DNA of 64,000 nucleotides. Origin: Branchiostoma floridae. Taxonomy: Eukaryota; Chordata; Leptocardii; Amphioxiformes; Branchiostomatidae. The DNA lies in NCBI RefSeq assembly GCF_000003815.2, contig NC_049984.1, forward strand, positions 25,965,338 through 26,029,337, given 5' to 3'. The notes under the pieces are model-generated. The model was not told where the DNA came from. It ran no database searches and was given only the letters and a program-made list of their open reading frames with translations. Both the position numbers and the translations under genes were made by a program. Of this stretch, positions 13,416 to 52,689 are shown one piece after another. The first letter of the stretch is position 1. Each line of letters starts with the position of its first letter.

Positions 13416-13561
13416 AAAGCTCGTACAAGTATTCAACTAGCTGCCGAAATTTAGCAATATTAGCAACGTTAACGTATACCACGTTGGCGTAAACAATTAT
13501 CAGTCCCTTTAACGCGATAAGTTACACACGGGCCCATTTTCCCCTCTCATTTCTGGACAGG

Positions 13562-29230: not shown

Positions 29231-30109
29231 CGAGTCCGTTTTCTGTTTTAGAACATGGCCACTACCTCGAAAATTTTTCCAACCTCCCTAATTTTTCTCA
29301 AGATGAATCAAGTACATTTTATATTTAGAATATCACATTATAAATTGTGTCAGAGTACCTCTCTTGGTTTAAAATAAAGTGAAAGAGAATTTATTGATCA
29401 ATGGAATTTGTTCATGGTGCTTTATGGCATCAGTGAAACCACGAAGTGCTACACATGTTGGTAGAGAGAATCAAGCTGTTTTGTTTCTGTGGCACCATCC
29501 GTGTTATTTTCTGTAGTCGATGTGATTCACTGTTTTCCAGTAGAGATAATCACTACTGTTCTGTTACGTTTGTCGGCGCGGCCACTGTTACTGTTAGAGT
29601 TTATGTAAAATATTGCCCTTGTTATTTTCTGAACATCTAGTTCTGTTTTCGAGTTAAAGAAATTTGGTTACTATTATGACATTGGGTTTTTGTGTCTTAA
29701 TCCTTCCTAATCCCCCAGGTAATTAGCACAGTGTGTACGAGTGCCCACAAATGTTCCAGAAAAAGTATTTTTTAACAATTTGGGCGTTTCTTCAACACCG
29801 GTATTTCAACCAGACTTATCAGGGGGTTAACAATCGCGAGCGTACTCTTTGAGAAATAAAATGTTTTTTAGAAATGTGATACGCTACATAAGAAAGATCT
29901 GTTTGACCCATTGAACCCTTTGAAGACATCGCAATTCAGGGAGCCCCTTAACTTTAAAAATAATACACTGAGATATCTAGATATATATGGCCATAATTTT
30001 CTGTCGTGTTAATGAATAAATGAATGAAGACCTTTATTGTACGTTTTTGCTTTCTAACAAGCAAAGTACAGGTCAAGGTAATAATGTATCATCACCTTTT
30101 CCTATACAG

Positions 30110-30321
30110 CTATGGTGTTTTAAATGACGGCGTTGCGTGTCACGACTGTCACCCCTTCTGCAGAGCCTGTCTGGATACGTGGCTGCAACAACAGGTGCAG
30201 CTTAGAGCTGGCCACACCACGTGCCCAGCATGCCGCACAAGGATCGACAACAGTAGGGTGAGGGAGCTCCGACTAGTGAACAAGTTCCTTGGAGAAACGG
30301 AGCTGCGGTGCACGAATGGAG
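30110..30321 (+). CDS. RING-finger exon (RING/TRAF-type protein)
   Basis: Between acceptor TTTTCCTATACAG and donor AATGGAG|GTAGGT the frame reads YGVLNDGVACHDCHPFCRAC, LDTWLQQQVQLRAGHTTCPA, CRTRIDNSRVRELRLVNKFL. The HPFCRAC ... CPAC part is the H-x2-C-x2-C and C-x2-C core of a C3HC4 RING; the first Cys pair should be in an upstream exon. RING fingers act as E3 ubiquitin ligases; here that is family knowledge. Ends in phase 1, compatible with the next zinc-finger exon. Confidence 0.7.
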
Positions 30322-30645
30322 GTAGGTGCATAAGAAGAAATTTGTCATGCAGAAGCATGACTAATACAGTATTTCTTTTCTTGGATCGGAGTGACGTATG
30401 CTGGAATGTTCTTCATAATTACTACATGAAAGGATATTAAAGAAGTTTCATGATTACCGTCTGATATTTTTAGTATCATGAACAAGTTTACATTAGAGTT
30501 ATTTACTCCGTGTAAGGTCCCTTTATAGCCCTAACCTGCTCTGTTAGAGAATGCACTACTCGTGCCTTTCTCTAACTTGTAAATCAATTCTGCTATTCTG
30601 TGTTCATAGATATGATATACCAATGTATATGGTTTAAATTCTTAG

Positions 30646-33712: not shown

Positions 33713-33968
33713 ATTACGCATCGATTTATTTGGATCAATTTCATGGGGGGTTAAAAATCATCTTTATTACACACAAGATGAATACATACATGTAAATATT
33801 ACAAGCTAAAAACCTAGGACAGCCCTTTGTCTAGATCTGTTCTCCAGGAGGGCGCAAGGTATTAAAAAGAAGTACAGTGACAAATTAAAATCGTTTAAAA
33901 ACATTAACGTCGCATTTCATAACATTTTTTGGCCCAGATACATCATAAAATTTAGACCCAGATACAAA

Positions 33969-34518
33969 CTAGTTTCTGTAGATAAACAGTCCTGACGTAC
34001 AGTCCCAAGTAGGTGTGTTTCGGGCAAAGTAGATAGCATAGGATGCACAGAGTGCGCACTTTCCCAGTCTACTTTTAAGATGTCTCACTTCACGGTCTTT
34101 GTAGCTGACCGGACAGAGTGACTTCAGCTTTGCAGTGTTCTCGCCGTTAATCCAACCTCTGCTCCCTACTTCAACTGTAACAAGGCTAGCCCTGTAACTA
34201 CTGTGCGAGTTTATTTCATTGATCAGACATTCGTATTTGGCCATTTTTCTGTCCTCGGCATGCTGTGCATTCTGATCAAATGGGACGGTAAGTTCAACCA
34301 AGTTCAGTGTTTGTTTTACAGGATCCTGAATGGTGATGTCTGGTACCAGTGAAGTCGGCAGGATGTCTGGAGGGACTGTTGTGTGCGTTCCCCCATCGAT
34401 GAAGTCCTGGCTCAGATCGCACCTGATTATGGTCTGTGGGTTTGCTTTGGCGTGCCACACTTTGAGGGTGGTGACCAGTTCCCTAAGGACACTGTTATGT
34501 CGCCAGGTGTACCTGTCT
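33969..34518 (-). mobile_element. R2-like retrotransposon, C-terminal part (3' half of split copy)
   Basis: Minus-strand frame from the Kolobok insertion point to a stop at 33969: DRYTWRHNSVLRELVTTLKV then about 165 more residues, including SLVPDITIQDPVKQTLNLVE, LTVPFDQN and VTVEVGSRGW. PD(I/L)...VELTVPF...E..K...Y..L followed by VEVG.RG is the endonuclease-like C-terminus typical of R2-type and related elements. An AATAAA-like tail signal lies further down at about 33757. The frame continues exactly in the piece at 47823-48153. Confidence 0.75.
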
Positions 34519-34522
34519 TTAA
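34519..34522. repeat. Target site duplication TTAA (left)
   Basis: TTAA immediately left of the terminal inverted repeat; the right copy is at 47819-47822. TTAA targets are characteristic of Kolobok and piggyBac; the transposase inside is Kolobok-type. Confidence 0.85.
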
Positions 34523-34974
34523 AGGAGTCCTAAAGTGGGGATGGGAGTGCTATTTTCCGACAAATATTGATTTTAGAAAGTGAAAAATGTATATAACTTG
34601 ACAATATACTATAATAGACCCATTATGCGCCAACTCTGAAATTGATCGGATCCAGGAAAAAATCCCCTTAGTGCCCTCTAAACAATCCCAGAATGCATAG
34701 CGCTACCTGAATGGCGCGCTTCAAGACGCTGCCTTGACGAGGGAAGAGGACTTCAACTTTTGTGCCCTTTTCAAGAACAACGAAAAGGCTTACCAAGGTA
34801 TGCATCTTACAGTGAATTTTATATACGTTTTGAAGGATGTTGAGATCTAACAGGGGGCTGCAATGCTATTTTTATCGGCATGAATACAATTATCTCGGGC
34901 CGTGCATGTTTGTTTATGTCTACGATGTTGCTTCTCTGGCCCACAAAAAGTTACGTTAAAAAAATAATTCCAGG

Positions 34975-36545
34975 GGTGATGTTAAAAAATCATCCCGTTT
35001 TGTATTCTTTGATATCTAACAAACGTTCCACCTTTTTGTTTTGAACATCTCCCCTCATTTATACCGAAAATTTTTACGATGAAGTGAAGTGGCCGTACGC
35101 AAGAAAATGCCCCGTGAATGGGACTCCCGCCATTTTTGTTGTTTATGTTTTGATCGCCTCTTGTCTTACTGCATGCCGAAGTCGCCACAAAAAACGGGAT
35201 AATCCTTGTAAATTTCGGGGAATCGCACTTGAAGTGAGTTACCTTGTATTATTCTTAGATAATTGGACATGTTGGTGTGCTTTTCGATCCTCATTTATGC
35301 CGCCAAATAATTCACGGAAACTTTTGAGAGGTCGGGCATGTTTATTCATGCCGCCTCCGTGCCATGTGCGTGCCACTGTTTTGATCGACAAAATCTACGT
35401 TACAGAAATAATTCCAAAGGTGATGCTAAAAAATCATCCCGTTTTGTATTCTTTGATATCTTACCAACATTCCACCTTTTTGTTTTGAACATTGTCTGTC
35501 ATTTATACCGAAAATTTTCGCGATAAAGTGAACTGGCTTGGGCTGACGTAAGTAATGTCCCGTGGAAGGGACTCCCGCCATTTTTTGTTGTTGTTTTGAT
35601 CGCCTCTTGTCGCATGCCGAAGTCGCCACAAAAAAACGGGATAATCCTTGTAAATTTCGGGGAATCGCACTTGAAGTGAGTTACCTTGTATTATTCTTAG
35701 ATAATCGGACATGTTGGTGTGCTTTTCGATCCTCGTTTATGCCGCCAAATAATTCACGGAAACTTTGGAGAGGTCGGGCATGTTTATATATGCCGCCTCC
35801 GTGCCATGTGCGTGCCTCTGTTTTGATCGACAAAATCTACGTTACAGAAATAATTCCAAAGCTGATGCTAAAAAATCATCCCGTTTTGTATTCTTTGTTA
35901 TCTTACCAACATTCCACCTTTTTGTTTTGAACATTGTCTGTCATTTATACCGAAAAATTTCGCGATAAAGTGAACTGGCTTGGGCTGACGTAAGTAATGT
36001 CCCGTGGAAGGGACTCCCGCCATTTTTTGTTGTTGTTTTGATCGCCTCTTGTGGCATGCCTAAGTCGCCACAAAAAACGGGATAATCCTTGTAAATTTCG
36101 GGGAATCGCACTTGAAGTGAGTTACCTTGTATTATTCTTAGATAATCGGACATGTTGGTGTGCTTTTCGATCCTCGTTTATGCCGCCAAATAATTCACGG
36201 AAACTTTGGAGAGGTCGGGCATGTTTATTCATGCCGCCTCCGTGTCATGTGCGTGCCTCTGTTTTGATCGACAAAATCTACGTTACAGAAATAATTCCAA
36301 CGGTGATGCTAAAAAATCATCCCGTTTTGTATTCGTTGATATCTAACCAACATTCCATCTTTTTGTTTTGAACATTGTCTGTCATTTATACCGAAAAATT
36401 TCACGATAAAGTGAACTGGCTGATGACGTAAGAAAATGCCCCGTGAAAGGGGCTCCCGCCATTTTTGTTGTTTTTGTTTTGATCGCCTCTTACCGCATGC
36501 CGAAACCGCCACATAATTTCACGGGATAATTTCAGTTACTTTCGG
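34975..36545. repeat. ~441-bp satellite units, left block
   Basis: Units beginning GGTGATG(C/T)TAAAAAATC start at 34975, 35419, 35861 and 36302 (spacing 444, 442, 441), highly alike, with a partial last unit. They lie within the Kolobok element near its left end. Each holds the motifs TTTTGATCGCCTCTTG and GACATGTTGGTGTGCTTTTC. No coding function evident. Confidence 0.9.
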
Positions 36546-36715
36546 GAAATCATCATTTTTTGTTCTCTCAACATTAGGCCACATGTCGTTTTAACCTAAA
36601 ATACTTACGCTGATTTGAAGTGTATCTAGCGTTTACATGCATTGGTACACTGAGATGTCAATCATCATTCTTACATTTCATTTTTTTTTAAATCCTTTTA
36701 CAGACATGGAGCGAT

Positions 36716-36760
36716 TGTTGCGGTCATCTGGAAAGAGTCCTGACAAGACGGTACATAGTC
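36716..36760 (+). CDS. Kolobok transposase, exon 1 (start)
   Basis: After acceptor TCCTTTTACAG the first ATG opens MERLLRSSGKSPDKT and ends at ACG|GTACAT in phase 0, which fits exon 2. The donor is not strong, so the start exon is a moderate call. A further 5' untranslated exon near 34700-34795 is possible (donor CCAAG|GTATGC). Confidence 0.5.
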
Positions 36761-37066
36761 CGTTTTTCCTCATTAAAACAATCATCACGTACAAATATGA
36801 GAAACAATGATTGACTGAGATGTTGAAATAAAGACTAGTAACAAACTACAGTAATGCAAATAAGTTGTAGATGTAACGTAATGTTGCTGTTTCCTGTACT
36901 ATATTTTATTTTAGTTAGAAAAGTTAATAATTTCTGAGCATCAAGTCAGGTAAAACATTTTGTTGTTGACCCATATATTGTAATTTACCATACAATTCAC
37001 TACAAATGTATTATGTCAGTGTATGGTCACAAAAAGACTTACAGTAAAATGTATTTTCAACTTCAG

Positions 37067-37277
37067 AAAATTGTCAAAAGCCAGAAGAAACGGCGTATTG
37101 ACGCATGGACAAACAAAGAGACCAGAGCCCTTATCCAGTTCTGCTCCCTGACCTGTGAGGGATGTTGGGATCCCAGAGCATCCCAGGCCTGGCCTATGAT
37201 GAAATGTGCGTCTCCCTTCTGGAGAAAGGCAGTAGAGTATGTAGAGCAGCACGGAGGAACTTCAACTCCACGAACGG
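37067..37277 (+). CDS. Kolobok transposase, exon 2
   Basis: Acceptor TTTTCAACTTCAG, donor ACGAACGG|GTTAGT. Encodes KIVKSQKKRRIDAWTNKETR, ALIQFCSLTCEGCWDPRASQ, AWPMMKCASPFWRKAVEYVE. The W-spaced pattern resembles a Myb/MADF-like DNA-binding trihelix (W.....R..I.F......W.....W......FW..A). Ends in phase 1. Confidence 0.65.
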
Positions 37278-37593
37278 GTTAGTAACAACAGTCTGTTTGA
37301 CTGTTGACTGACTTGCTTATACTGTTATAGAAAACCAGTACTGATTCTTGATATTCCCCTAACCCAGTTGACTTGTGTAGAAGGCGGTTGGAAGTCTGCT
37401 GGCAGTAGCCTCACGGTTGCAAAATATCTGTTATTTCCCTACTGTAATTTCATTGACTACACTCTATTGCATTTACTTGAGCAAGTTTTGCCAGTTTTCT
37501 CTCCATGTATCAACTTAGATTGCAGTTCAGAGACTGTTTATTACAGCATTCCACTCACACTAACATTCCATATTTTACTTTGGTCACTTTCAG

Positions 37594-37667
37594 AATCAGC
37601 CGTCCGAAGTCATGTCGGCAAGCACCTGCGCAAAAGGTTCCCTGGGGGAAGATTGGCAGCAGAGAAA
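37594..37667 (+). CDS. Kolobok transposase, exon 3
   Basis: Acceptor GGTCACTTTCAG, donor GAGAAA|GTATGT. Encodes ESAVRSHVGKHLRKRFPGGR then LAAEK; phase 1 in, phase 0 out, matching both neighbours. Completes the predicted N-terminal DNA-binding region. Confidence 0.65.
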
Positions 37668-37910
37668 GTATGTACTGATAATGTACTATTGTTACGTTAT
37701 GTCATTGTTGTTATTATGGCTACAAATTGGTCATGTTGTGGTTGTGTTGCATTCCATATCCTTATCATCATGGTATAATTATAAGTAAATTCACGAGATT
37801 GGAAATCATGTCCCTGTTCCTGAAAGTGATTTTTCATATAAAATACTGTCAAAGAATTGAATACTCTACTTCTATTTGTAATTTACATATATCCGTCTTA
37901 TTGTTTTCAG

Positions 37911-39281
37911 GAATTTTGTGACCCCGTGCCTAGCTGCAGTGCTGTGCCCAGCCCAGCCCCTGACCCTGCTCTGTCAACCAGCCCCAGTAGGAGTAGTAGA
38001 ACTCTGCCACGCACTGCCCTTTTCAGCCCTAATCCATCAACAAGCCCATCTACACCATACAGCCAGCTTTCAGACAACCTTCTATTCGCCAGTCCAATCA
38101 GCAACGACAGCGGCATTCCACCAAGCAGTTCTTCTATCAACCCTGATCTGTGGATGGATATTTCCGATCCTGTGCCAGGAAAAAAGGATGTGGCGACACA
38201 GACAGGCGAAGACAACAGCATAGGTGGACAGTCAAACCCAGTCAAGGCACACAAATCCCAGACAGTTCAACAGTCAAACCCGAATCAACCACTTCTCCAC
38301 TCAACCCCAGTAAAGGCAAGCCATCTCATGGACCTGGACATGTCATTCACACCATCTTCCACGTGCTCAACCCCAGTAAAGAAAAGAGACCTGTCCTACC
38401 GTCCCGGCTCTGAATCGGAATCTGAATCTGAATGTGAGCTTGTAGATGAAGAATGCCTCCTAGAAGGAAGAAGGTTTATCGTTTTTGGTGAGCAGCTGAA
38501 AGAACTTTTCCAGAAATGTCCTTCATGCGGTGGTCAAACACTACTGGATACAAAAACCAGAGGTTGTGCCGTTTCTATCACGTACACGTGCGAAAACAAC
38601 CACACTGGGACATGGCAGTCACAACCCTATGATAAGGGAAGAGCTCGTGGGAACCTGCTCATTCCATCTGCCATCCTCTTCACTGGCGGGTCCGTATCGA
38701 AATTCATTGACTTTGCGGACTGTCTACAGCTCCAGTTTTTCAGCGAACAACACTTCCACAGCATCCAGCGAACATTCGCCATTCCAGTAGTGAATGAACA
38801 TTACCTTAGCCAGCAAAACATGGCACTCGACTTGTGCAGGGGTGCGCCTATAGATATAATCGGGGATGGAAGATGCGATAGCCCGGGCCACAACGCCAAG
38901 TATATGTCTTACACTCTTATGGAGGAAACCACCGGTCTCATCTTAGCCATGGAACTCATCCAGGTGACTGAAACGGGAACCTCCCAGGCCATGGAGAAGG
39001 AAGGCCTGGATCGATGTCTCGCGTTCTTGACAGACCCGGAAGGAGAGGATATGGAGGTTCAGTGTCTCACAACAGACAGGCACAGGGGAGCTGGTGCCCT
39101 TATGAGGAAGGTGTACAAAGAGATCGAACATCAATTTGACATCTTCCACGTCTGTAAAAATGTGAAAAAGAAGATTTTCGATAAGGCCAAAGGAAGAAAC
39201 TGCGCAGAACTGCTACAGTGGCTCAAATCAATCTGCAACCATCTTTGGTGGGCAGTACAGACCTGTGAGGGGAATGCAGAG
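37911..39281 (+). CDS. Kolobok transposase, exon 4 (catalytic core)
   Basis: 457 codons, phase 0 at both borders (acceptor TTATTGTTTTCAG, donor GCAGAG|GTTTGT). A Ser/Pro-rich linker is followed by CPSCGGQ ... CENNH (zinc-binding pair), the linker TWQSQPYDKGRARGN, then IIGDGRCDSPGHNAKYMSYT with a catalytic Asp candidate, MEKEGLDRCL, CLTTDRHRGAGALMRKVY with the second Asp, HQFDIFHVCKNVKKKI and NHLWWAVQTCEGNA. This order is that of Kolobok transposases (GDGRCDSPG...TTDRH...NHLWW). The third acidic residue should be in the following exon, probably within the assembly gap. Confidence 0.88.
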
Positions 39282-39724
39282 GTTTGTTTATATTTCCTGA
39301 GTTTTAGCTTATCAGATTGTGCACAAACTTGTATTTCTTCATAGTATCTCACATAGGCTGCTTTTCAGATTCCCAGATTCATGGGGTAGTCAAAATGACT
39401 CTTGATATGTGCACTGTAGGCGGAGAGGCACATGTACATGTACTTAGCATGGAAGGTAATCTCATTCTGTGTTTGTAGTCATCTTAGTACAATGCTAAAC
39501 TTTCTCGCAACACAAAGGTACTCACGGATAAAATTTTCCACAAATACTGTCACTTTCTTCAGGATCAAACCTTATTGATTTTGAACTACATGGATGTGGT
39601 CAGTGAATTTTTGTTGAAATCCACTCTCTGCAATATGTGTCATAAACAGACATAAGCATGTTCCAACCAGAGTTTTTGTGTTTTAGCTACTGCCTCTCCC
39701 CGTCTCTTAGTTCACTTCTTTTTT

Positions 39725-39928
39725 NNNNNNNNNNNNNNNNNNNNNNNNNNNNNNNNNNNNNNNNNNNNNNNNNNNNNNNNNNNNNNNNNNNNNNNNNNNN
39801 NNNNNNNNNNNNNNNNNNNNNNNNNNNNNNNNNNNNNNNNNNNNNNNNNNNNNNNNNNNNNNNNNNNNNNNNNNNNNNNNNNNNNNNNNNNNNNNNNNNN
39901 NNNNNNNNNNNNNNNNNNNNNNNNNNNN
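39725..39928. other. Assembly gap (N run)
   Basis: 204 undetermined bases in the Kolobok transposase gene, between exon 4 and the next recognised exon. A conserved exon of the catalytic region is likely hidden here or in the adjoining sequence. Confidence 0.99.
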
Positions 39929-40121
39929 GCGCAGAATGACAAGTACAAGCACACCGGTGGGCATATCCTGTTTTGTTTTGTGTGATATCTGTATCCATAT
40001 TGGTATATTATTACTATTCTTAAATATATAGTTAATTATGCAAATGCTTATAAATGTTATACAATTAACACTTCTCATAATGGGTTTTGATATTGTTTTG
40101 TATCACTTTGTCTTTCTGCAG

Positions 40122-40268
40122 GTGAAGTGGAGGTATACCACAATGTGGTCACCAAGTACGCACCAAAGAGGATCCACTACTCATACAACGGTATGAAGGC
40201 CCGTGTACAGCTCTCCATCATTGACCACAATGAGAACATCGGAAGGAAACAGGCAAAGACCCTGAAAG
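40122..40268 (+). CDS. Kolobok transposase, exon after the gap
   Basis: Acceptor TTGTCTTTCTGCAG, donor CTGAAAG|GTCAGT. Reads EVEVYHNVVTKYAPKRIHYS, YNGMKARVQLSIIDHNENIG, RKQAKTLK. (L/V)E.(F/Y)H..(M/V)..Y.PKR.H..Y..M.AR..L...DHN is the conserved C-terminal block of the family. Ends in phase 1. Confidence 0.8.
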
Positions 40269-40408
40269 GTCAGTGTACTTTACTTTTAGATTTAGTGAAA
40301 AGGTAATTACTATACATGTGTATATTATGTTTGTAAGTAAGTGTATAACGTTACATGCACCAAGTCCTTGCATGTACATAATTTGAATAAAACTGATTTG
40401 TTTCATAG

Positions 40409-40649
40409 GAGACACAATGACCCGACTGGACTGGAGCAAAAAGCAGAAGCGCTATGCTGTAAAGAATGTGTACGAACAGAAGGACTACAGCTTCCGGCAA
40501 AAGCTGATGGCAGACGTCTTGGAAAGGGCACAGAATGGAGAGAAGACTCCAATCCCTCGGAGGCCAGATCTGCCAAAAAACATTGCTCCTGAACCACGAC
40601 CAGACAAGGCTCAAGCCCTGGCAGCTCACAGGTCGAGGTTTCCTGACAG
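40409..40649 (+). CDS. Kolobok transposase, penultimate exon
   Basis: Acceptor TTTGTTTCATAG, donor CCTGACAG|GTGAGT. Reads GDTMTRLDWSKKQKRYAVKN, VYEQKDYSFRQKLMADVLER and a basic Pro-rich stretch to HRSRFPD. It follows the previous exon in phase. W.K....Y.VK...E.K.Y.....LM fits the Kolobok C-terminus. Confidence 0.8.
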
Positions 40650-40833
40650 GTGAGTATTTGTTTCTGTAACATGTGATATTAGCTGCTGTATGATTATCAT
40701 AATTCCCCTCTTTACACTGTCTTCATGCTTCTACACATTACACATGCTTCAATTATTGATAACAATGAATGAGATACAAATTCCTGAATGAATTTGCTTA
40801 TTATAGTAATGAAACACTTATTTCGTTATATAG

Positions 40834-40849
40834 GGGAGGACGTACTTAG
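40834..40849 (+). CDS. Kolobok transposase, possible last exon
   Basis: After acceptor TTATATAG the frame gives only GGRT and a TAG. A neighbouring frame is open longer (GEDVLSRLTQDLESCC), so either the protein ends here or the splice site differs. Confidence 0.3.
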
Positions 40850-41213
40850 CAGACTCACACAGGACCTGGAGAGCTGCTGTGTTATTCTGGGAAAGGTTTG
40901 CTTGTTGAGCCAGTCCTTGACTTCTTTTATTTATTTATTAAACTTTACAGAAAAAGTTCTGCAAGGTGTGGGTAACAGGATATACCTTTACATGACCCAC
41001 ACCTACAGCAACAGTTAAAATCATAACAATGAACAATAGAGAAAGGGCAAATAAAAACAAAGAACTTTACATAGAGGTATTCTAACAAAAAACGGCAAGA
41101 TACGAAACAATACCCAAACGAAACAACAATAAAAGGATCAGATAAACTAAGGTTAACAAACAAATGAGAATGATGTAACTATAGGTTGACCACACATTTA
41201 GATGTGCATCCAA

Positions 41214-44120
41214 TCAGCACTTGGAACAATGGGTCCAAGTGCTTATTAGATAGACATCAAAATGTGTGGCCAAAAGAGAGAAGTAATGATCAATAACGTA
41301 CTGCTTAAAACGATTTGTTGAGAATGTTGGATTTAGCCGAAGTTTTCTAATTTCAGGTGGTAAGGAGTTCCATATGTAGACGATTCTGTTAAAATAGGAG
41401 TACTGAAAGTTTGTAGTGTGACACTTACCAGGGATAAGTTTAGCTTGTGAATGTGCTCTTAAAAGGGGGTGTGGGAGATTTAAAAAGTTGTCAATATTAA
41501 TATCATAAAGTCCTAGTAAGCACTTATATAAAAAACATAGATCAAGTATTTCTCGTCGGTAGGAAAGAGGTAATAGTGAACAATGTATTAATCTCGTCTT
41601 GTAGTCTGCTGTGTAATCATTAAGAATATACTTGGAGGCACGTCTTTGAACTTTTTCGACTGAGGAAATGAGGTTGTGTGTATAGGGTGACCAAACGACA
41701 GAGCAGTACTCAAGTCTGCTTCTGACTAATGTGAGATATAGCATTTTTTTTACATTTACAGGGGCATTGAAACCTACAGATCTTTTTAAAAAGCCGAGAG
41801 CTGAATTTGCTCTCGAAGTGATATTATGTACATGAGAATCGAAAGTTAAATTCCACGTAGCTAATACCCCTAAGTCGGTAAATTCAGGAACAGACTCGAG
41901 GACCGTGTCATTCATTTTGTACGTAAAGTTAATAGGATTTCTAGATCTGCTTATTGTAAGGATTTTACATTTGTTGGGATTAAAATTCATTTGCCAAGTA
42001 TTACTCCAATCGTACATACAATCAATATCTCTCTGGAGTGATACACAATCTAAGACAGTAGAAATTCGTTTGAAACATTTAGAGTCGTCAGCGTAAAGGC
42101 CCATTTTGTTGCTAACTACGGATGGAAGATCGTTGATATATAATAAGAAAAGGAGGGGACCAAGAATTGACCCCTGGGGGACTCCCGATACTACTGGGAG
42201 CCAATCCGAACACGTACCCTCGACCATTACACGTTGCCTCCTACATGAAAGATAACTATGGAACCAGGTAAGTAAATTTGAATGAATACCATACATTTTG
42301 AGCTTATGGACTAACAGCTGGTGAGAAACGCAGTCAAATGCCTTGGAAAAATCCAAATATATGATGTCTACTTGGCCACCTCGATCTAAAATCCCGCCAA
42401 TTTCATGGTAAATTTCAAGGAGCTGTGTCGATGACGATCTGCCCTTGATGAAACCGTGTTGTAACGGATATATCAAGTGCTTTAAATGAGGAAATATACG
42501 ATTAAACAAACACCTTTCCATTATCTTTCCGACAATGCTAAGAAGAGAAATTGGGCGGTAATTTTCTACTAAATCTTTCCGGCCTTTTTTAAAGACAGGA
42601 CAAATATTTGCATCCTTCCACTGCGCAGGAACCCAGCCCTGTCTCAAACTTCTGTTAAACAATGCAGTCAGGTGAGGAGCGATCACATGTGCGCACTCTC
42701 GAAATACAGTAGGTGAAAGTCCATCTGGACCAATTGCCTTGGTGCAATCGAGTATCGACAGTACATTTTGGACTTCTTCAATTGAAAATACAATATTTCC
42801 TAGACATGGATGTTCGAAAGCCACGATTTCAGGCAGACAAAGGGTATCATTAGATAAAGTGAAGACTGAATGAAAGTAATCGTTAAACATGACAGCCTTC
42901 TCTATGGCGGAGCTTGCTTTGGCGCTAGCTGAATTCAAGACGGCCGGAAGGCATTTGGATTTGGTTTTAGATCTAAAAAAAGACCAAAACCTTTTCGGGT
43001 TCGTTTGCACTAGAGGTCCAAGATTGTTCAGAAACGAGTTGTACTTTGTCTTAATGAGTCTTTGAAGATCGTTTCTGAGTTTTCTAAACTTGCTCCAATG
43101 TGAAGGACTGTTAGTTCGTTTGGCTAATCGCCATGCCGTCTTCTTTTTGTTGCGTGCATGTCTGACTTCGCCGTCGAACCAAGGTAATGAAGATGATCGT
43201 TTTACACACATTTTTGGAACACAAAGCTCAACAGATTCGGTAACTTCGAACATCCACCTCTCCCAGACATTGTCAAGATTAACATCATCGTTGATATTGT
43301 GAAGTTTTGATTCTAGATCTAACCTTAGCCTATTAAAGTTACCTCTTTTATAATTATAAACATATCGTTTATCTTCATGCCTTTTGATCTTCCTATTGAT
43401 GATCAAACCAAACTGTAATATAGCATGGTCAGTAGGATACTCTGATGTGACCTGTTCGATTTCTAAACATTTGTCAGGTATGTTAGTCAACACTACATCT
43501 AGCAAATGACCATGACTGTTGGAGATGACATTATTTATCTGAGTAAGAGCGTAGTCATTTAGTAAATCACATAGGCGACTCTCATGTTCGGAGTGGCTTC
43601 CTCCTTTAGACCAATCTATGTTTGGGCAGTTAAGATCACCCATCAGTACTACCTGTCTGTACTCCTTGGAGACACAGCTTAGAATAGAACTCAGATTAGC
43701 ATTAAAGACAGACAAGTCACCACTCGGTGGCCTGTAATACACAATGAGTACAATTTTTTGATGATTTGTGGGATGAATGTCACAAATAAGAACCTCGTCC
43801 ATGGGCTCAAGGTCCTCTCTTCTCTGTGAGAGAATATTAGATTTAACAGCCAACATTACACCACCACCTGTCATTCCAGGCTTGGTGACACTTCTGTCTT
43901 TCCGATGAACGGTGTAGTCCTGGGGCAGAAGCTCCTGGTCGGCTACACACGGAGTTAGCCAGGTTTCAGTCACAGATATGATGTCAGGCTGTACAGTAGC
44001 AACAAGATTTTGAAAGCAAACGAGTTTGTTATATTTCTTGCTAACTGACTTGACACTGCGAGCGTTTAAGTATAGAACATTGAGACATGAAATGTCAGTT
44101 GGGAGAGTCTTTACTCGTTG
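41214..44120 (-). CDS. CR1-like endonuclease and reverse transcriptase
   Basis: Frame open for about 968 codons from just after a TAG at 44121. Endonuclease blocks: LNVLYLNARSVKS, SVTETWLTP, GGGVMLAVKS, VLMGDLNCPNIDW, LLDVVLTN, TDHAILQF, that is the APE-type nuclease with its TETW, GDLN and (S)DH motifs. RT blocks: AIGPDGLSPTVFRE, VFKKGRK and NYRPISLLSIVGKIMER, QHGFIKGRSSSTQL, YLDFSKAFDCVSHQ, SGVPQGSILGPLLFLLYIND and the catalytic LYADD. The thumb region ends with VWSPY ... VQRRA. No disruption was seen, so the enzyme may be active. Clade CR1/L2-like by motif style, not proven. Confidence 0.88.
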   Translation of the reverse strand, partial: QRVKTLPTDISCLNVLYLNARSVKSVSKKYNKLVCFQNLVATVQPDIISVTETWLTPCVADQELLPQDYTVHRKDRSVTKPGMTGGGVMLAVKSNILSQRREDLEPMDEVLICDIHPTNHQKIVLIVYYRPPSGDLSVFNANLSSILSCVSKEYRQVVLMGDLNCPNIDWSKGGSHSEHESRLCDLLNDYALTQINNVISNSHGHLLDVVLTNIPDKCLEIEQVTSEYPTDHAILQFGLIINRKIKRHEDKRYVYNYKRGNFNRLRLDLESKLHNINDDVNLDNVWERWMFEVTESVELCVPKMCVKRSSSLPWFDGEVRHARNKKKTAWRLAKRTNSPSHWSKFRKLRNDLQRLIKTKYNSFLNNLGPLVQTNPKRFWSFFRSKTKSKCLPAVLNSASAKASSAIEKAVMFNDYFHSVFTLSNDTLCLPEIVAFEHPCLGNIVFSIEEVQNVLSILDCTKAIGPDGLSPTVFRECAHVIAPHLTALFNRSLRQGWVPAQWKDANICPVFKKGRKDLVENYRPISLLSIVGKIMERCLFNRIFPHLKHLIYPLQHGFIKGRSSSTQLLEIYHEIGGILDRGGQVDIIYLDFSKAFDCVSHQLLVHKLKMYGIHSNLLTWFHSYLSCRRQRVMVEGTCSDWLPVVSGVPQGSILGPLLFLLYINDLPSVVSNKMGLYADDSKCFKRISTVLDCVSLQRDIDCMYDWSNTWQMNFNPNKCKILTISRSRNPINFTYKMNDTVLESVPEFTDLGVLATWNLTFDSHVHNITSRANSALGFLKRSVGFNAPVNVKKMLYLTLVRSRLEYCSVVWSPYTHNLISSVEKVQRRASKYILNDYTADYKTRLIHCSLLPLSYRREILDLCFLYKCLLGLYDINIDNFLNLPHPLLRAHSQAKLIPGKCHTTNFQYSYFNRIVYIWNSLPPEIRKLRLNPTFSTNRFKQYVIDHYFSLLATHFDVYLISTWTHCSKC

Positions 44121-44618
44121 CTATTCGCCCACCAACGGTCTGGAGTTTGAGTGAGTGGTCGTGGCGCAGTCGCGGACAGTATCACAGGAAACGGTTGAAA
44201 CAGGAGGACTCGTCGCGGGCATGGCCGACAGGGATTCCTCACACGTAGTCCGGAGGTCCAAAGGTGGAACATCGGTGGTGAGTGGAGGGGTGGTTATGTG
44301 GGAAACGGTTTTGGTGTGTAGGTCACGAGCAGGTTTCGGGACTCCTTGACTGACCTGAAATCGTTCTGCGTTCTGTTTTTTAGTTGCCGGATGCGTGCGT
44401 TGTTCGGGTGAGGGGAGCGACCGTTTCCTGTTCCTCAGGTTGTAGCGATCGTTTGAAGGGCGGTAGCTTGGTGCTGTGACGTCGCTGTTGGGATGTGGTT
44501 CCTCAGCCGACATGAGTCTGGAGGCCCTAGACCGCCGCTTATTCCTGTGATTAGAGAGGTGGCGCCTGTCAGCATCAGCAACCGCTGACGGACGCTGATC
44601 TGTGTGTTGAACACGAAT
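44121..44618 (-). CDS. CR1-like ORF1 fragment
   Basis: Basic, Ser/Pro-rich reading ending at TAG 44121-44123: RRHLSNHRNKRRSRASRLMS, then YNLRNRKRSLPSPEQRTHPA. No zinc knuckle, esterase or coiled coil is visible. It lies in the same frame as the RT ORF and is separated from it by this single TAG. The frame continues upstream into host sequence, so the natural start is missing or is the Met of MSAEEPHPNS. Confidence 0.55.
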   Translation of the reverse strand: MRVQHTDQRPSAVADADRRHLSNHRNKRRSRASRLMSAEEPHPNSDVTAPSYRPSNDRYNLRNRKRSLPSPEQRTHPATKKQNAERFQVSQGVPKPARDLHTKTVSHITTPPLTTDVPPLDLRTTCEESLSAMPATSPPVSTVSCDTVRDCATTTHSNSRPLVGE

Positions 44619-44620
44619 GT

Positions 44621-44885
44621 ACTTCTGTACCATGTTGTATTTCCTCATGAGAATAGTTGGAAATGTATACACATTGTACTCAGCTACATGTTATGCTGTG
44701 TTATTCTGACAAAGGTTTGCTTGTTGAGCCAGTCCTTGACTTCTGTACCATGTTGTATTTCCTCATGAGAAAAGTTGGAAATGTATACACATTGTACTCA
44801 GCTACATGTTATGCTGTGTTATTCTGACAAAGGTTTGCTTGATGAGCCAGTCCTTGATTTCATTATCATGTTGTATTTCCTCTGT
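44621..44885. repeat. 118-bp tandem repeat split by the CR1-like insertion
   Basis: Units containing GCTGTGTTATTCTG and GGTTTGCTTG(T/A)TGAGCCAG start at 44695 and 44813 (period 118). The first unit's beginning is at about 40878-40925 on the other side of the insertion. About three units in the original Kolobok sequence, the last diverged. Confidence 0.85.
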
Positions 44886-45732
44886 GAGATTGTTGTTCAC
44901 AGTATCTCCGATAGTAGATGAGGAAAAGTTAACAAAGGAGCATATTTTCTTTTATCACATACTGTTTTTATAAGTCATAATTGGTTCTTACTACATGGGT
45001 GTATGATTTATATATGAAGTCACATTCGTATCGATGTAGAAAACTAAGTTTCTAACACTGTAAAATATATTTCTATGACATGGAGAATGTAAACAACTAT
45101 TAGTGAACAATTCTGGTGGTCAGTATCGCAGTATGAAATGTTGTTCACAGTACCTCTTATATGACATGAGGAAAAGTTGGAGCATATTCACTTATTGTTT
45201 TTTCTACAATATTCATAGTTGGTTTCTTACTACATAGTTGTATAATCTATCTACGAATTCACATTCTTATTGATGTTGAAAACCATGTTTCTTTTATTTC
45301 AAAGAAATGGCAAACCAGTTACAGTACATGTAAGGACAGTGATTGTGCTTATCATTGGCATCATACATAAAGTTGTAGATGACTGTACAAATCAAATTGC
45401 ACTCAAAATATCCTTTACCAAGATGTATTTACTGATAATTTAGTTGTACAGACCTATTGTATTGTCTCTATTGTTGTTGCACCAAGTTTGCACGAAAAGT
45501 CAGCAATTGTGGTACATGCACTGCAACATTTCGACAACTGAACTAAAAGACTAACGAGAACAGTTACAAGTAAGTGTATTATATATGTCTAGAACAACAG
45601 CCGGCCGTACATTGTTCGTATACTAGTAGTAATGTACCGTTATAATGCGTGCACAGAGAAAAATAAGAACAAAGGCATTTTTTAGAGTACGGGTAACAGA
45701 GGTAAAACAAAAACGTCAGAAGTCCTTCTATC
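44886..45732. other. Kolobok internal non-coding sequence
   Basis: AT-rich, with two diverged copies of a block containing TTGTTCACAGTA(T/C)CTC (near 44892 and 45142), suggesting an old duplication of about 250 bp. No exon supported. Confidence 0.4.
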
Positions 45733-45898
45733 CTAGTCGTCAGCCTCCAGGAAACCGACGTAGTTCCCATCTGGACTAGGGTATTCCTGCCGGATCCTGA
45801 GAACAGCACATGATGGAGCAACCCGCCGGACACCTTTCCCCAGCCGCCGTTTGTGTACCCAGCAGGTAAACTGTCTGTATGCAGACAGCCTCAGGATT
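45733..45898 (-). CDS. P2X7-like zinc protein of the Kolobok element, exon 2
   Basis: Minus-strand acceptor TCCCTTTTCCAG then [49 protein letters not shown] and a TAG at 45733. (Y)RQF..W....LG...R..IPSC....IR..(F/Y)P is the second half of the domain that resembles the cytoplasmic ballast of P2X7 receptors, a known companion ORF in Kolobok elements. The exon joins exon 1 in phase. Confidence 0.78.
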
Positions 45899-46039
45899 CT
45901 GGAAAAGGGAGTAAAAGATATTGCAAATCGCATCCATTGCACAAATTCGATGCATAACAGTAACGAAAAGAAACTGCAAATCACAGGACGAGCATATCTG
46001 TTTACGGTGTTTAGTTGTTATTTATATTGTAGGATTTTG

Positions 46040-46930
46040 TCAAACAAAAGCTTTTTGGAGCAAAAAGAAAAACCGCCGTGTTTTGTGTTCTTTGATATCT
46101 CATCAAGAACTTCCTTCCTTGTTGGGCACATTGCCCCTCATTTATACCGAGAATAATCACCATGAATCAAAAACGGCCGTGGGCCGTGGCCGCCGTGTTT
46201 GTCTTGTTGTTTTGATCGCCTGTTACTGCATGCCGAAGCGGCCACATAAAACGGGATAATCCTTGTAACTTTCGGGAAATCGTCCCTATAGTGAGTTACC
46301 TGGTATAATTCTTAGATAATTGGACATGTTGGTGTGCTTTTCGATCCTCATTTATGTCGCCAAATAATTCACGGAAACTTTTGAGAGGTCGGGCATGTTT
46401 ATTCATGCCATGTGCGTGCCACTGTTTTGATCGACAAAATCTACGTTACAGAAATAATTCCAAAGGTGATGCTAAAAAATCATCCCGTTTTGTATTCTTT
46501 GATATCTTACCAACAATTCAACTTTTTGTTTTGAACATCGTCTGTCATTTATAACGAAAATTTTCACGATGAAGTGAAGTGGCTGACGTAATAAAATGCC
46601 CCGTGAAAGGGGCTCCCGCCATTTTTGTTGTTTTTGTTTTGATCGCCTCTTATCGCATACCGAACCCGCCACATAAAACGGGATAATTTCTGTTACTTTC
46701 GAGAGTTCGTCCTTGTAGTGAGTTTGTAATTTTTCATTAATTGGCCATATTTGTGGCCTTATCTGCCCTCACTTATACCAAAAATATTCACGATGAAATG
46801 TAGTTTTTGTAAGAAAGGATTATGGCCGTGGCGTCCATGTTTGTTTGGTTTGTTGTTTTGATCGCGGCCACATAACACGGCGTAATCTTTGTAACTCAAA
46901 ATCGCACGGTTGAAATGAGTTCCCTAGTAT
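46040..46930. repeat. ~441-bp satellite units, right block
   Basis: About two units in the same orientation as the left block (shared GGACATGTTGGTGTGCTTTT and GGTGATGCTAAAAAATC, here at 46465), more diverged, with the last part degraded. Direct, not inverted, relative to the left block. Confidence 0.85.
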
Positions 46931-47058
46931 GCATTCAAAAAACAGTCTAGTTGGTGTGCTCATGTGCAAGTTTTACGTTATAGTCGGGAAATTTCTACGA
47001 TGCATAACGAGTTTTATCATCAAAGAAACATCAAGGAAGAAAGGTAGGTGACAATTAC

Positions 47059-47629
47059 CTGTAACTAAGCGGTTCTCGGACGTTCTCAAGTCCGAGATTC
47101 TGCCGCTGTAACAGCGCAGTCTTCAGTGCTGCTCTCAGGATGCAGATGGGATGAAACTCACTGTCCAGAGTTATACACTTGAGTTGGTCGGGACCGACGC
47201 CCACCCCTCTACCGCCATTATCAAAGTCTTCCACGACAACAGGCGGAGGGTCGGTAAGTTCGACGAGATCGTGGCAGCATACGCATTCTCTGACAGTATC
47301 CATATAGTCACAGTTGCCGCATCGACACCAAATTTCAAGTTGGCCCTTCTCCAGGCTTCTGTCTCAACATCGATGCCGTCCCAAGCGGCTATCGGGACTG
47401 CTTGAAGATTCCCCGGTCCAACAGCACCGGGCACGGCCGCTTCTCCTTCATTCTGAGGTTCTTCCCGCTCTTGCTGCGGCTCGTGCATGTAAGGCTGGAT
47501 GTTGTCGAGATCCAGTGAAACATCGCTGTCGCTAGAGTCATACAAAGTGCTATTTTGGCTATCCACGCCGTCGTCTGACGAGTCTGACATGTACGCTTCC
47601 GCCATGACAGTTTCGAGAATATCGAGCAT
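47059..47629 (-). CDS. P2X7-like zinc protein of the Kolobok element, exon 1
   Basis: From a Met at 47629 (MLDILETVMAEAYMSDSSDD) through an acidic Ser-rich region to EAWRRANLK; then, in another frame, WCRCGNCDYMDTVRECVCCH, DLVEL ... EFHPICILRAALKTALLQRQ up to donor CTTAGTTACAG|GTAATT. WCxCGxC..M.T..E..CC is the hallmark of the P2X7-like module. The frame change at about 47330-47340 (AAATTTGG) is a small indel or a sequencing error, so this copy may not make the full protein. Confidence 0.72.
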
Positions 47630-47818
47630 TGCGTAATTCAAAGTTCCCGGATGTACCAATTGAGGGTCAGCAAGGGGGAAATGATATTCACAGCGCTTTA
47701 CAAACAGACGTCGCGAAAATCGCGCAAGGGAAATTTTTGTAAAAAAAAGCCTGTTTATGTATTCATTGAAGTATAATCTATTGGAAAATAACACTCCCGG
47801 CCCTAGTTAAGGACTCCT

Positions 47819-47822
47819 TTAA
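47819..47822. repeat. Target site duplication TTAA (right)
   Basis: Right copy of the Kolobok TTAA duplication, adjacent to GGGCTACTGG of the R2-like element. Confidence 0.85.
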
Positions 47823-48153
47823 GGGCTACTGGGCACATGTTGAGGACATGACACAGAGTCTGTCGTCCTTGGCAGAGTGGACACTTGGGTGACAACATTT
47901 TCCCCCATCGAACTAGATTGTCACGTGTTGGGAGCCAGTTTAACATTCCGTTTAGGGCGAATTCAAACACTCCGCGGGGAGTGTTGCACAAAGTGCTCCT
48001 CCACCTTACGTCAGTCTGTTCTTGTTCTACGAGTTCAGCCCAGCTTCCCTGAACTTGGAGAGATCTGCATTTTTCTTCTATTTTCGTATCCTCTTCCTTT
48101 CGCAGGCGGAATATATCTAGAATCTCAGATACAAGTATTGACCTGTTCTCCTT
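47823..48153 (-). mobile_element. R2-like retrotransposon, zinc-knuckle part (5' half of split copy)
   Basis: Minus-strand frame open from 48153: ENRSILVSEILDIFRLRKEE, VQGSWAELVEQEQTDVRWRS, FALNGMLNWLPTRDNLVRWG, then CPLCQGRQTLCHVLNMCPVA. CxxC-x7-H-x4-C is the zinc knuckle preceding the restriction-like endonuclease in R2-type elements. The frame runs up to the Kolobok insertion and continues at 34518. The RT core is absent upstream (TGA at 48154-48156), so the element was a 3' fragment already. Confidence 0.75.
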
Positions 48154-48156
48154 TCA

Positions 48157-49681
48157 ATGCTTAACCCGCTAGAAAGTATATCTCACTCAGCTTATTTCTC
48201 ACTCGGGTTTATTTGGACTATGTATCATGGAACAAAATAGCTCTGCGTTTTATTACAATGACCGAGACTATCTAAGATAAACGTGTTCCGTACAGACTTT
48301 TTGAACAGCTCACGAATGTCTTGTTTAACGTTGAATGATTCTTCAGGTGAAGCTGCACAAACCATGAACGTTCATCTGCTACGGCACCTGACCCACCAGA
48401 CCAGACTGTATGGGTCATTATGGGCTTCTCATGCTTTGGTTTCGAGTCAATGAATGGGCAGATCAAGAGATTGCAATTGTTCACGGAACGAGCTTCGTTG
48501 TGCAATAGGTATAGTAACCATACATATATCAACATGCACTGTTAAAACGGGATGCTGCTCACACAATATTCATCCATTTTTCATCCATTTTGATGGAAAT
48601 GAATGAATCATCAATGTTTCTTTTTTATGTGTCCAGTACATGTTGGCTTATAAGACATGGAAATGATATGTTTGATGAAAGTGATTAATTATGAAAACAT
48701 ACATTTAGGGCTGATTTTCAACACTTCCTATTGTTCTTATTGTGAAACATTAACAATGGGAGATGTTCTCTACAAGCATCTGCTGATTTATCTCTGCTCC
48801 TTCTGATGGACGAAAGCACTGTAGAAACAGTTTGGGAAATGGCAAGGTACAGAAGACTGTACTATTTTCCTAACGTTGAACTGCCTATTCACTCTCTTAG
48901 CTGCCAATCACCTAGTACTGTGTATTATAGCTTTCGTTTGGGTCATCTTTTTTTTTTAAGAGACCAAAAGTAATAAGTCATTCCTTGTGCATCAAATAAG
49001 CCGGGTATTGCGCGTGTACAATTGGCACCAAACATTTTTCTTAGTTAGGTCGGTGCTGATGACGTTGACTCCATCATGGAATTATTCGATTGCAGCATGA
49101 CTTCGTTTTTTTTTGCTATGTCGAGATTTTTACTGATATTTTTTGCTGAAAAAGTGACCAAGGTATCAATATGCCCCAAAGGAAACATACAGTACAATGG
49201 CATCCGACTGTCATCAGAGGACATCTCCGCGATCCTAAGAGACCAACTGCAGCAGGCCAAACCAACCCAACCCAACCCAGACAAGGGGGTCTCCGAGAGA
49301 CTACTGCGAAACGTCGTGCATCTGACAGTAATAGGATTCACACAAAAAACGTCACAAAGCACATGACACCTCAGACATTACTGCAAAAGTCCGCGCTTCC
49401 AAAAGGGCTGGCTAAAAACTACATCGAGTGAGAAACGACAACGGATGCGGAGTTACTAAAGCATAGCGGACTGGTTTAAAACTTTTAGTGAAAAGAAGAT
49501 TTTGGGTCGAAACCGCTCGGAGGTATGGATTGGAGATGGTCTAAATGTTTTGGAATGTACAAATTCAGTTCTGAGCACCGTTAATGTTGGTTCGGGTCCA
49601 TTGGTAGGGGAGGATAGCAAAGAAGATGACAAGGGGTGAGTTATAAATTACTAGGAATTTATTACTAGTCAACTCTTTCAG
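48157..49681. other. No firmly supported gene
   Basis: A reading at 49076-49366 (VSICPKGNIQYNGIRLSSED and on) and an overlapping one at 49171-49431 are open but unrecognised. Otherwise AT-rich. Confidence 0.3.
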
Positions 49682-50182
49682 ATGACAATAACAAAATCAG
49701 GGAAGAAGAAACACACCTTCACCAGCGAAGAAAAGATCCTCCACCTGAAAGAAGTCGTGATGAAGAATGTGTCGGAAATAACAGATGTTGAGCTTGACTC
49801 TGAAGATGAAGACCAAGAGTATGTCACATTGAAAGAACCCGACGCCAGAACTGTACCAGAAATGTGAGCAAAGTTAGAGGAGAAGCGGGAAATTGCACGA
49901 GAGAAAAGGGAAATATATCAGCAAAAGCTATCCTTGCAAGTGTACCTAAAAAAACCATCCAAACTGGTTGGCTGTCGAGTGAAACATCAGTGTGACTCTA
50001 CAGATGAGCAGGGGAACAAGGAAGCGAGGTGGTTTGCAGGAGTCGTCACTGGAATTGTCAACAGGACTGAAGACGCGCCAAAGGACACTGTGTACAAAAT
50101 GGAGTAAGATGATGAAAATGAAAGTGATAAAGAGTTTAACCTCCTTTCAGACTAGAAAATGGGGATCTGATTATGGGGGGTG
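49682..50182 (+). pseudogene. Tudor-like ORF with nonsense codons
   Basis: One frame reads SEEKILHLKEVVMKNVSEIT, ELDSEDEDQEY, a TGA at about 49865, then AKLEEKREIAREKREIYQQK, SKLVGCRVKHQCDSTDEQGN, RWFAGVVTGIVNRTEDAP and, after TAA and TAG, an acidic LL.DLE-like end. LVG..V.H........W..G.V.........Y...Y is a Tudor/SAWADEE-like barrel seen in invertebrate repeat-associated proteins. At least three stops mark it as dead. Confidence 0.4.
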
Positions 50183-51240
50183 AGATGTAGTTTTGACCTC
50201 GAAAGTTTTAGATACAGAAGGGTTTGTAGAGTCATTACAATTACAAGGTTATGAAGTTTCAGAGCCTGAGTGACATGCCTACAGGACTGGAAATTGTTGG
50301 TATTACTAATCTCTTAGATCATAAAGTGTACTACAGATATAGGATCCATGACAAATTAACTGTGCCATTAAAGTATGATCTCTTATAGAGCCGTTACCGT
50401 CCCCGCAAGTGTATTGGGATTATTGCTTATCCACCGGGCGAATCTCACCCCTGATGAAAAGAAACTAGTTCTCACCGGTCTAGATTATACCAAGGAGGAT
50501 ATCACGCTTTTGGTACAAGCGAAGGAAAGTTTGCGTAAGTTTTCTGATAGTCAATTGATAACACTATTTAACGAAAAGTCACTTATTACCGAAAAGTCAC
50601 TAATTACCGAAAACAACCGAGAACAACTTTCATTATTTACCGAAAACAATTTGACACAACCATAATCAACAATAATTTCAATGGGCTATTATTTAACAAT
50701 TTTGACTTTATTTTGGACAGGACTTAGGCTAGGATGGATTCCTTTGTTTGACGATCCACGATCTTCTTCCTATTAACCTCACAAATGAGAGTAGAAAAAG
50801 AGCCGTGCTTCTGCGCTTTGTTTGGTAGGAAACTCATACAATATATTGCAGCCTCGGCACTACTGATGACGATGAACAAGAATCAGCTCACAAAATACTT
50901 CGAGCCACAGAAAAACACTGTGCATCGGATGCGGATGCAGCTCCGATCCTTACCTTGGCTAGCCGGCATGATCAGACCAAGACACCTTTCAAAATGACGC
51001 TCGACCAGTGGACCGACGCGCTCCTGGTCTTTCACTACATTTATATTTAACGCCACCCTACTGCGACTTCTGTGTTATGATCACCTCAGTAGAATCATGT
51101 CTTCCAGGGGGGCTAACTGGCTCCGCTGCGACCAGTCATTCCGCACACACCGTCAGGCATCCACACACACGCTGGTGGTAAGCATTAGAGAGGGGTGTAC
51201 GGCAAAAAAAAAAAAAAAAGACCATCAGTTCACTAAAGGA
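50183..51240. other. No firmly supported gene
   Basis: A reading at 50375-50665 ends in a repeated NNREQLSLFTENN-like stretch caused by local repeats (ACCGAAAA units at about 50589-50645). A poly-A run is at 51207-51222. Confidence 0.35.
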
Positions 51241-51780
51241 ACAGAACATTGTCCGAACAATACGAATAAGAGGGAAGAGCTATGCCTGTATGGAAATGGA
51301 GTCACCTTGGTGACAGTCGTGGGAGCCGCCATTGAGCTGGATGACAACTACGTACGTCACAAGCTCAAGGAGTATGGTGAGATATATACGGGACGGGAGG
51401 TTCCTGACCTACGCAAGTCGGGGATACCCCCCCCCCCCCCCCAAAAAAAAAGACGGGGACGAGACAGTATCAGATGGCCCTGAGGAAACACATTCCCAGT
51501 TCTATCAGAGTGGAAGGCGATAATGTGGCAGTGAGGTTCAATGAGCAACCTAGAATGTACCATCGCTGTGGAGGTCAGGATCACTTTGTGGCAGCCTGCA
51601 CCATTGATAAGTGCTCGCGGTGCCACGAGGTTGGCCACATGGCTGGAGACTGAAAGGTACAGGTCAGGTGCAACAACTGCAAGGGGCAGGGACACACATT
51701 TAGGTCCAGTCCCCTGACACTGGGCTGCAGAATACGGCAACGGTGTTTCTCAAAGAACGTTACGACCAGAAACAATTATG
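51241..51780 (+). pseudogene. Zinc-knuckle (gag-like) ORF1 relic of a LINE
   Basis: Pieces in shifting frames: GVTLVTVVGAAIELDDNYVR, KLKEYGEIYTGREVPDLRKS; after the C/A homopolymer at 51429-51450, LRKHIPSSIRVEGDNVAVRF, then RCGGQDHFVAAC, CSRCHEVGHMAGD and a stop, then CNNCKGQGHTFRS. The CxxCxxxHxxxC knuckles after an RRM-like part are typical of ORF1 proteins of L1/Tx1-like elements. Broken by at least one frameshift and one stop. Confidence 0.55.
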
Positions 51781-52209
51781 TATAAAGCTGGCACGTTTCC
51801 ATTGAATTTGTAAAGACAGCAACAAATGCCGGTAGCAGAGCCTGAAATCCTACTTCTTTATTAATTCTTAAAATTCGTAATTCGTAAATATTATACCAAA
51901 TCAGAAAATAATGCAAGTGATTTAAAATCGAGCTCTGATTCGATGGATGTTCCGTTCCCTTCTTGTTATGAACTATTTTCTGGCGGCACTTGTGTACATC
52001 TGGTCTGAGGAGGGTATTCGGTGTCTCGGTGTTGGAGGCTCACACAGGGTTTGTCAAACCGGCGTGGTTTTGGACAATGCAGGAAATGCAAACCGTTTTT
52101 TTTCGTGACTTTCATAGGTGTCTCATACAACCTATTCATAACACAGCGTGTTACGATGTGTGATCACTTTCAACTGTAAATTTCCATCAAACACTTCCCC
52201 TTTTATTAT

Positions 52210-52500
52210 ATGTATGATGCAGTAATCTGGAGTGAACTGGCCATAAAGTACAATGTAAAAGGAAAAGGTGGAGAATTTCTGACAGATGCAGGGCAACTCA
52301 TAAAGCTGTGGCTGCAGCAGGAAGGACTTGATATTGAGCGATTAAACTCAGGAACAGGGGACGAAAGAATCCGCCGTGCCAGAGTAAGACCTGGCATTGA
52401 CCCCCAAATTACAGTACCAAACAAACGTACTGAGGCTTACATTAGGGATGAGCTGAAGATTCTCAGCAGTGAAGGAGAGGTGGGAGGAACTAAGGTCTAA
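52210..52500 (+). CDS. Small ORF, unknown
   Basis: VIWSELAIKYNVKGKGGEFL, TDAGQLIKLWLQQEGLDIER, LNSGTGDERIRRARVRPGID, then a charged end at TAA. The codon pattern looks coding, but I do not recognise the family. A duplicated GGAACTAAGGTCTAAGGTAA unit sits at its end (52486-52526). Confidence 0.35.
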   Translation: MYDAVIWSELAIKYNVKGKGGEFLTDAGQLIKLWLQQEGLDIERLNSGTGDERIRRARVRPGIDPQITVPNKRTEAYIRDELKILSSEGEVGGTKV

Positions 52501-52689
52501 GGTAAGGAACTAAGGTCTAAGGTAAGGAAGGAGAGGTGTCAATTGGAGAATTTTCACACCGAAAATATACAAGACCTACTTCATGGATAAAACATTAAAA
52601 CGATTTTAAACAAAGACCACTGTGATAGAGGGCAGGAAGCAGCCACTTCGCAAAGACACCAACACTGTTATTAACTCTTTTGAGCAAGT

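Follow-up and report, generated by a model that had tools for sequence, protein, structure and literature searches.

Three-level nesting of a Kol0-like Kolobok transposon and two LINEs in the genome of Branchiostoma floridae

Kolobok transposons of the Kol0 lineage duplicate a TTAA target, have termini of the RR...YY form, and encode a transposase with the motifs D, D and DxxH together with a second protein, KolX, which is described as the source of the ballast domain of the P2X7 receptor (Kojima and Bao 2022, PMC9587614). The XKol elements of Xenopus likewise have AG ends and TTAA duplications, and their full-length copies measure 6.8–13.9 kb; their transposases usually contain a THAP domain, which is usual, although not universal, in Kolobok (PMC6004289). 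Long interspersed nuclear elements (LINEs) with a restriction-like endonuclease (RLE), which include R2, are characterized by a CX2-3CX7-8HX4C knuckle, a variant of the PD-(D/E)XK core and the motif KX2KY (PMC5678591). Here we analyzed a stretch of 64,000 nucleotides from Branchiostoma floridae (GCF_000003815.2, NC_049984.1:25,965,338-26,029,337, forward strand), hereafter the window, in which a transposon that fits the Kolobok superfamily separates two halves of an R2-like LINE fragment and itself contains another LINE with an apurinic/apyrimidinic endonuclease (APE). This three-level nest almost certainly records three successive insertions. All genome searches were performed in the window's own assembly, which comprises 513,431,437 bases in 431 contigs.

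The interrupted R2-like LINE and the borders of the transposon

The outer LINE fragment is located on the minus strand. Its upstream half (47823-48112) contains the linker and the CCHC knuckle, and its 5' border is placed at approximately 48112, where the matches of two other copies, L021 and L022, begin. The downstream half (33749-34518), recognized from motifs and close copies, contains the endonuclease and the 3' end, with the 3' border at approximately 33749. It had originally been predicted that the two halves end at a pair of TTAA tetranucleotides and are in frame with each other when the insert and one TTAA are disregarded. Joined through one TTAA, the frames form 294 codons with a sole stop at the last codon, whereas joining without TTAA produces 9 stops and joining with two TTAAs produces 13. 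The first approximately 15 residues of the upstream frame belong to the flank and not to the LINE, as determined by comparison with other copies, whose borders indicate that about 1.06 kb of the LINE is present in the window, as a fragment truncated at the 5' end.

The same joined sequence exists without the transposon elsewhere in the genome. The joined LINE protein has at least 176 matches in the assembly, and thirty of these loci were compared at the junction. Six of them (L021-L025 and L027) are identical to the joined letters over 28 bases, and L034 differs from them by a single base. The junction is crossed with other letters by fourteen more distant relatives. Five of the remaining loci begin past the junction, two (L049 and L050) gave no row in the comparison, and two (L037 and L047) are the halves in the window. 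The copies are uninterrupted at the junction, yet not all of them are intact elsewhere, since L021, L022, L023 and L034 contain stops.

The transposon is positioned between the knuckle and the endonuclease of the LINE. The joined frame contains a knuckle of the form C-X2-C-X7-H-X4-C, the sequence RKMAKY, which corresponds to KX2KY, and PD-X14-E. The knuckle spacing, PD...E and KX2KY are the same as in R2 and other RLE-type LINEs (PDB 9nl3, 9dou; PMC5678591). The Pfam family zf-RVT matches the upstream half with 27.0 bits, just below the cut-off of 27.5, and the joined frame with 24.7 bits. Also present in the joined frame is RHN, which we take to be a further mark of this type of LINE. No reverse transcriptase was hit in ten minus-strand frames from positions 48154-53000, selected from frames of at least 45 residues. 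A relative, L032, carries RVT_1 (6.9e-22), and the best solved chains for it are R2 proteins (E 1.4e-30), aligned over residues 8-733, with L1 behind at approximately 1e-13. Unlike R2, the copy in the window is only a 3' fragment. The knuckle, the RLE motifs and the R2-related reverse transcriptase of L032 place the outer LINE among the RLE-type, R2-like elements. The upstream piece gave nothing useful among solved structures (best E 0.26), and a kinesin matched by the joined frame at 0.0084 was judged to be a chance hit. The single-sequence structure model of the endonuclease part had a mean predicted local distance difference test score (pLDDT) of 32.2 and was not used for a fold search; this part has no relative in the viral contigs searched.

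The transposon occupies positions 34523-47818 and is 13,296 bp long, including the inner LINE. It is bordered by TTAA target duplications at 34519-34522 and 47819-47822. Its terminal inverted repeats of 36 bp (34523-34558, plus strand, and 47783-47818, minus strand) are identical at 30 of 36 positions without gaps, and a repeat search that includes the TTAA extends the match to 47 nucleotides at 81%. The termini are AG...CT, which is the RR...YY form. The window has 302 TTAA sites; among all their pairings more than 100 bases apart, the one bordering the transposon ranked top, and the runner-up reached only 22 of 36. Therefore, the similarity of the ends is not a product of chance, and the matching inverted ends noticed originally are confirmed. 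The position of the borders to the base, which had also been predicted, was corroborated by the ends of other copies: of 18 loci examined, 17 have TTAA followed by a related end at the same base, the exception being L011. Four of the seventeen are accounted for by the window copy and the second copy described below, and two (L004 and L005) have a common flank. The border thus holds for the family and is not peculiar to the copy in the window. Both outcomes that the original prediction had named as refuting it, an R2-like copy that fails to match the two halves and Kolobok copies ending elsewhere, were checked, and both checks came out in its favor.

Second transposon copy, inner LINE and order of insertions

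A second, nearly identical copy of the transposon is located on another contig, C13 (C13:3649312-3658959), on the opposite strand to the copy in the window. The two copies are similar from one TTAA to the other, and their flanks on either side are unrelated. The C13 copy lacks the inner LINE, and its two ends and both gene parts, which are the same as those in the window, are located on gap-free sequence. The main transposase exon is identical to that in the window at 1368 of 1373 positions, with one gap of 6 bases; two of the differences are synonymous and three non-synonymous. This near-identity points to recent movement of the transposon and has no bearing on selection. Other blocks, including the repeat arrays, are 95–97% identical. 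At C278:5500-15400 lies L059, a diverged Kolobok that contains stretches of KolX and of a transposase.

The inner LINE is 3,695 bp long and extends over positions 40926-44620 on the minus strand. Its frame at 41214-44120 (minus strand) contains an endonuclease and a reverse transcriptase according to Pfam, and its best solved chains are L1 open reading frame 2 and a related polymerase. The endonuclease and reverse transcriptase identify the element, previously labeled CR1-like, as an APE-type LINE. It is probably 5'-truncated, since the frame is open up to the border of the LINE. The element is flanked by a duplication of ACTTCT (40920-40925 and 44621-44626) and has split a tandem array of 118-bp units, which continues at 44621-44882 (plus strand) and has a further partial unit at 40875-40925. 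The unit is present in 2.2 copies in the window, to the right of the LINE, and in 6.6 copies in C13. In the C13 copy, the sequence corresponding to the left flank of the LINE continues directly into that of the right flank, and thus C13 provides the empty site.

Based on these comparisons, the order of insertions is almost certainly as follows. The R2-like LINE inserted first, truncated at the 5' end to about 1.06 kb, probably by target-primed reverse transcription, as is generally known for such LINEs. A Kol0-type Kolobok then entered a TTAA located between the regions encoding the CCHC knuckle and the endonuclease of the LINE, and duplicated it. Its 36-bp ends may have been paired by its own transposase and joined to the TTAA. 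Finally, the APE-type LINE inserted into the array of 118-bp units, which is located in the 3' region of the transposase gene of the Kolobok, and duplicated 6 bp of its target. For the Kolobok step and for that of the inner LINE, filled and unfilled sites are both documented in the same genome, so the three levels of nesting proposed in the original prediction are upheld.

Transposase and KolX genes

The transposase gene is read from the plus strand. Its main exon (37911-39281) contains a zinc ribbon-like stretch followed by GDGRCDS, with the first catalytic aspartate at D 38865, TTDRH, with the second at D 39075, and DIFH at 39138. Putative N-terminal exons with an intron are located approximately at 37067-37668; they have splice-like borders and no Pfam domain above the cut-off. 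The copy in the window is then interrupted by a run of 204 N at 39725-39928. At the corresponding position, the C13 copy has an exon in which an H-H-C-H pattern can be read by eye, and the H2CH finger of Kolobok transposases precedes the last catalytic residue. Past the gap, further predicted exons at 40122-40268 and 40409-40650 (together 40122-40650, plus strand) include EVYHN, in which E 40130 is the likely third catalytic residue. These motifs mark the protein as a probable transposase of the DDE type with D, D, DxxH and a likely E. Its main exon has no relative in the viral contigs searched.

The transposon carries a second gene on the opposite strand at 45733-47629, which the original prediction missed while correctly noting the transposase. 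Exon 1 (47059-47629, minus strand, with a putative start codon) and exon 2 (45733-45874, minus strand) are separated by an intron with GT...AG borders (47058-45875). Exon 1 alone matched P2RX7_C at 0.0031, which is below the cut-off, and had no match among solved structures. The spliced exons matched P2RX7_C at 8.3e-14 and solved chains of the P2X7 receptor at 3.5e-6 for the best of them, and the cysteines of the motif WCxCGNC are kept. KolX has sixty matches in the assembly, many of which, such as those in C13 and C278, are split in two near residue 90-100. Residues 11-148 are encoded in one open piece at C10:15447629-15448024, C15:20686859-20687248 and C16:7635395-7635784. The splice model is supported by the many two-piece loci together with the three one-piece loci. 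The frames at the latter are 181–342 residues long and may represent KolX without an intron, retrocopies or genes of the host. In C13, exon 1 is open in a single frame, whereas the copy in the window shifts frame near 47,360. Our literature search for Kolobok and KolX returned PMC9587614 only. We guess that KolX is a helper that binds the transposase or DNA through a zinc-binding fold.

The transposase motifs, the ends, the TTAA duplication and KolX fit the Kolobok superfamily and its Kol0 lineage, and the Kolobok-type transposase named in the original prediction is therefore supported. The element shares with Kol0 (PMC9587614) the TTAA duplication, the RR...YY ends, the D/D/DxxH transposase and KolX with its ballast-type domain. 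It differs from Kol0 as described there in carrying arrays of 442-bp and 118-bp units, in the absence of a THAP match from those N-terminal pieces that were scanned, and in being a damaged copy. The damage is threefold: the LINE interrupts the 3' region of the transposase gene, the frame of KolX is shifted, and the gap covers an exon. From the XKol elements of Xenopus (PMC6004289), it is separated by its host and by the THAP domain that those transposases usually possess.

Alternative readings, repeat arrays and neighboring features

Several observations weigh against a Kolobok transposon that is nested in one LINE and contains another. The Pfam matches of the main transposase exon (MULE, ISL3 and Mutator) are all below the cut-off, so that the transposase was classified from its motifs and from the accompanying gene. 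The exon has no solved relative (best E 1.7), and its single-sequence structure model is too poor to be used (mean pLDDT 38.6). A THAP domain was not hit in the transposase pieces scanned with Pfam, which did not include the first exon. No target duplication around the outer LINE fragment was seen by eye. The left and right parts of the transposon in the window are joined across the gap by scaffolding and not by continuous sequence. The join could accordingly be an assembly artefact, in which scaffolding across the gap connected two LINE fragments and two transposon ends that do not belong together. However, the flanks of the transposon, once joined, are identical to the junction sequence in six other LINE copies, and the C13 copy has these two ends and the two gene parts without a gap, which makes such an artefact very improbable.

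The transposon contains an array of 442-bp units at 34946-36551 (plus strand), upstream of the transposase gene, with 3.5 copies in the window versus 2.5 in C13. Diverged units in the same orientation are located in the KolX intron (46080-46792, plus strand). KolobokP is described as having direct repeats of approximately 450 or 660 bp close to its two ends (PMC9587614), and the 442-bp units, which are similar in length and likewise located near both ends, could accordingly be taken as long terminal direct repeats of KolobokP or a relative. The repeats of KolobokP are terminal and have their own inverted ends, whereas those in the window lie inside the element, where they form an array on the left side and are in part located within the KolX intron. 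The best inverted ends of the 442-bp unit match at 11 of 14 positions and are part of an internal palindrome; because this score was equaled in 1 of 100 shuffles, the unit has no inverted ends of its own beyond chance. The related Kolobok L059 has no match to the unit and contains a different array of 205-bp units in 4.4 copies instead. The second gene of KolobokP encodes a His-Me nuclease, while that of the transposon in the window is KolX; Pfam scans of selected frames returned no His-Me nuclease, although no search was aimed at such a nuclease. We consider the assignment to KolobokP scarcely credible. A piggyBac transposon would also duplicate TTAA, as observed here, but it has next to no probability, given the DxxH of the transposase, the AG...CT termini, whose RR...YY form is assigned to Kolobok and contrasted with piggyBac, and the WCxCGNC cysteines kept in KolX, which are mostly absent from piggyBac proteins (PMC9587614).

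For the Kol0-like Kolobok, the 442-bp arrays are mildly unusual, and we read them as family-specific satellites. In Xenopus, a Kolobok-related miniature inverted-repeat transposable element carries an internal segment, Xstir, that has been amplified (PMC6004289). A regulatory role of the 442-bp arrays is possible but unsupported.

Other features of the window are located outside the nest. A frame of 641 residues at 13513-15438 (plus strand) matches RVT_1 at 2.8e-34 and DUF6451 below the cut-off, and represents another LINE. A cysteine-rich frame of 175 residues at 54250-54777 (plus strand) has no Pfam match; it presumably resembles part of a second Kolobok-type transposase. A RING-finger-like stretch at 30024-30440 (plus strand; zf-RING_2 at 0.00019, below the cut-off) is perhaps an exon of a host gene. 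The segment 27954-28679 is an array of 15 copies of a 48-bp unit and is enclosed in long open frames on either strand, and 2796-3720 holds a 462-bp unit twice, at 99% identity.

The nest is real but ordinary, and belongs to the everyday biology of repeat-rich genomes. The relative order of the insertions, their exact borders and both insertion-free sites are available within one assembly, which makes the locus a clean example of nested insertion. As a two-gene Kolobok with transposase and KolX and with a near-identical sister copy, the element makes KolX testable in a transposition assay. We speculate, as a long shot, that this recently moved Kol0 Kolobok may still move and that its satellite arrays serve the transposase or KolX as modules for binding or regulation. 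If this were true, the element would offer a natural setting in which to study the function of the ancestor of the P2X7 ballast domain.

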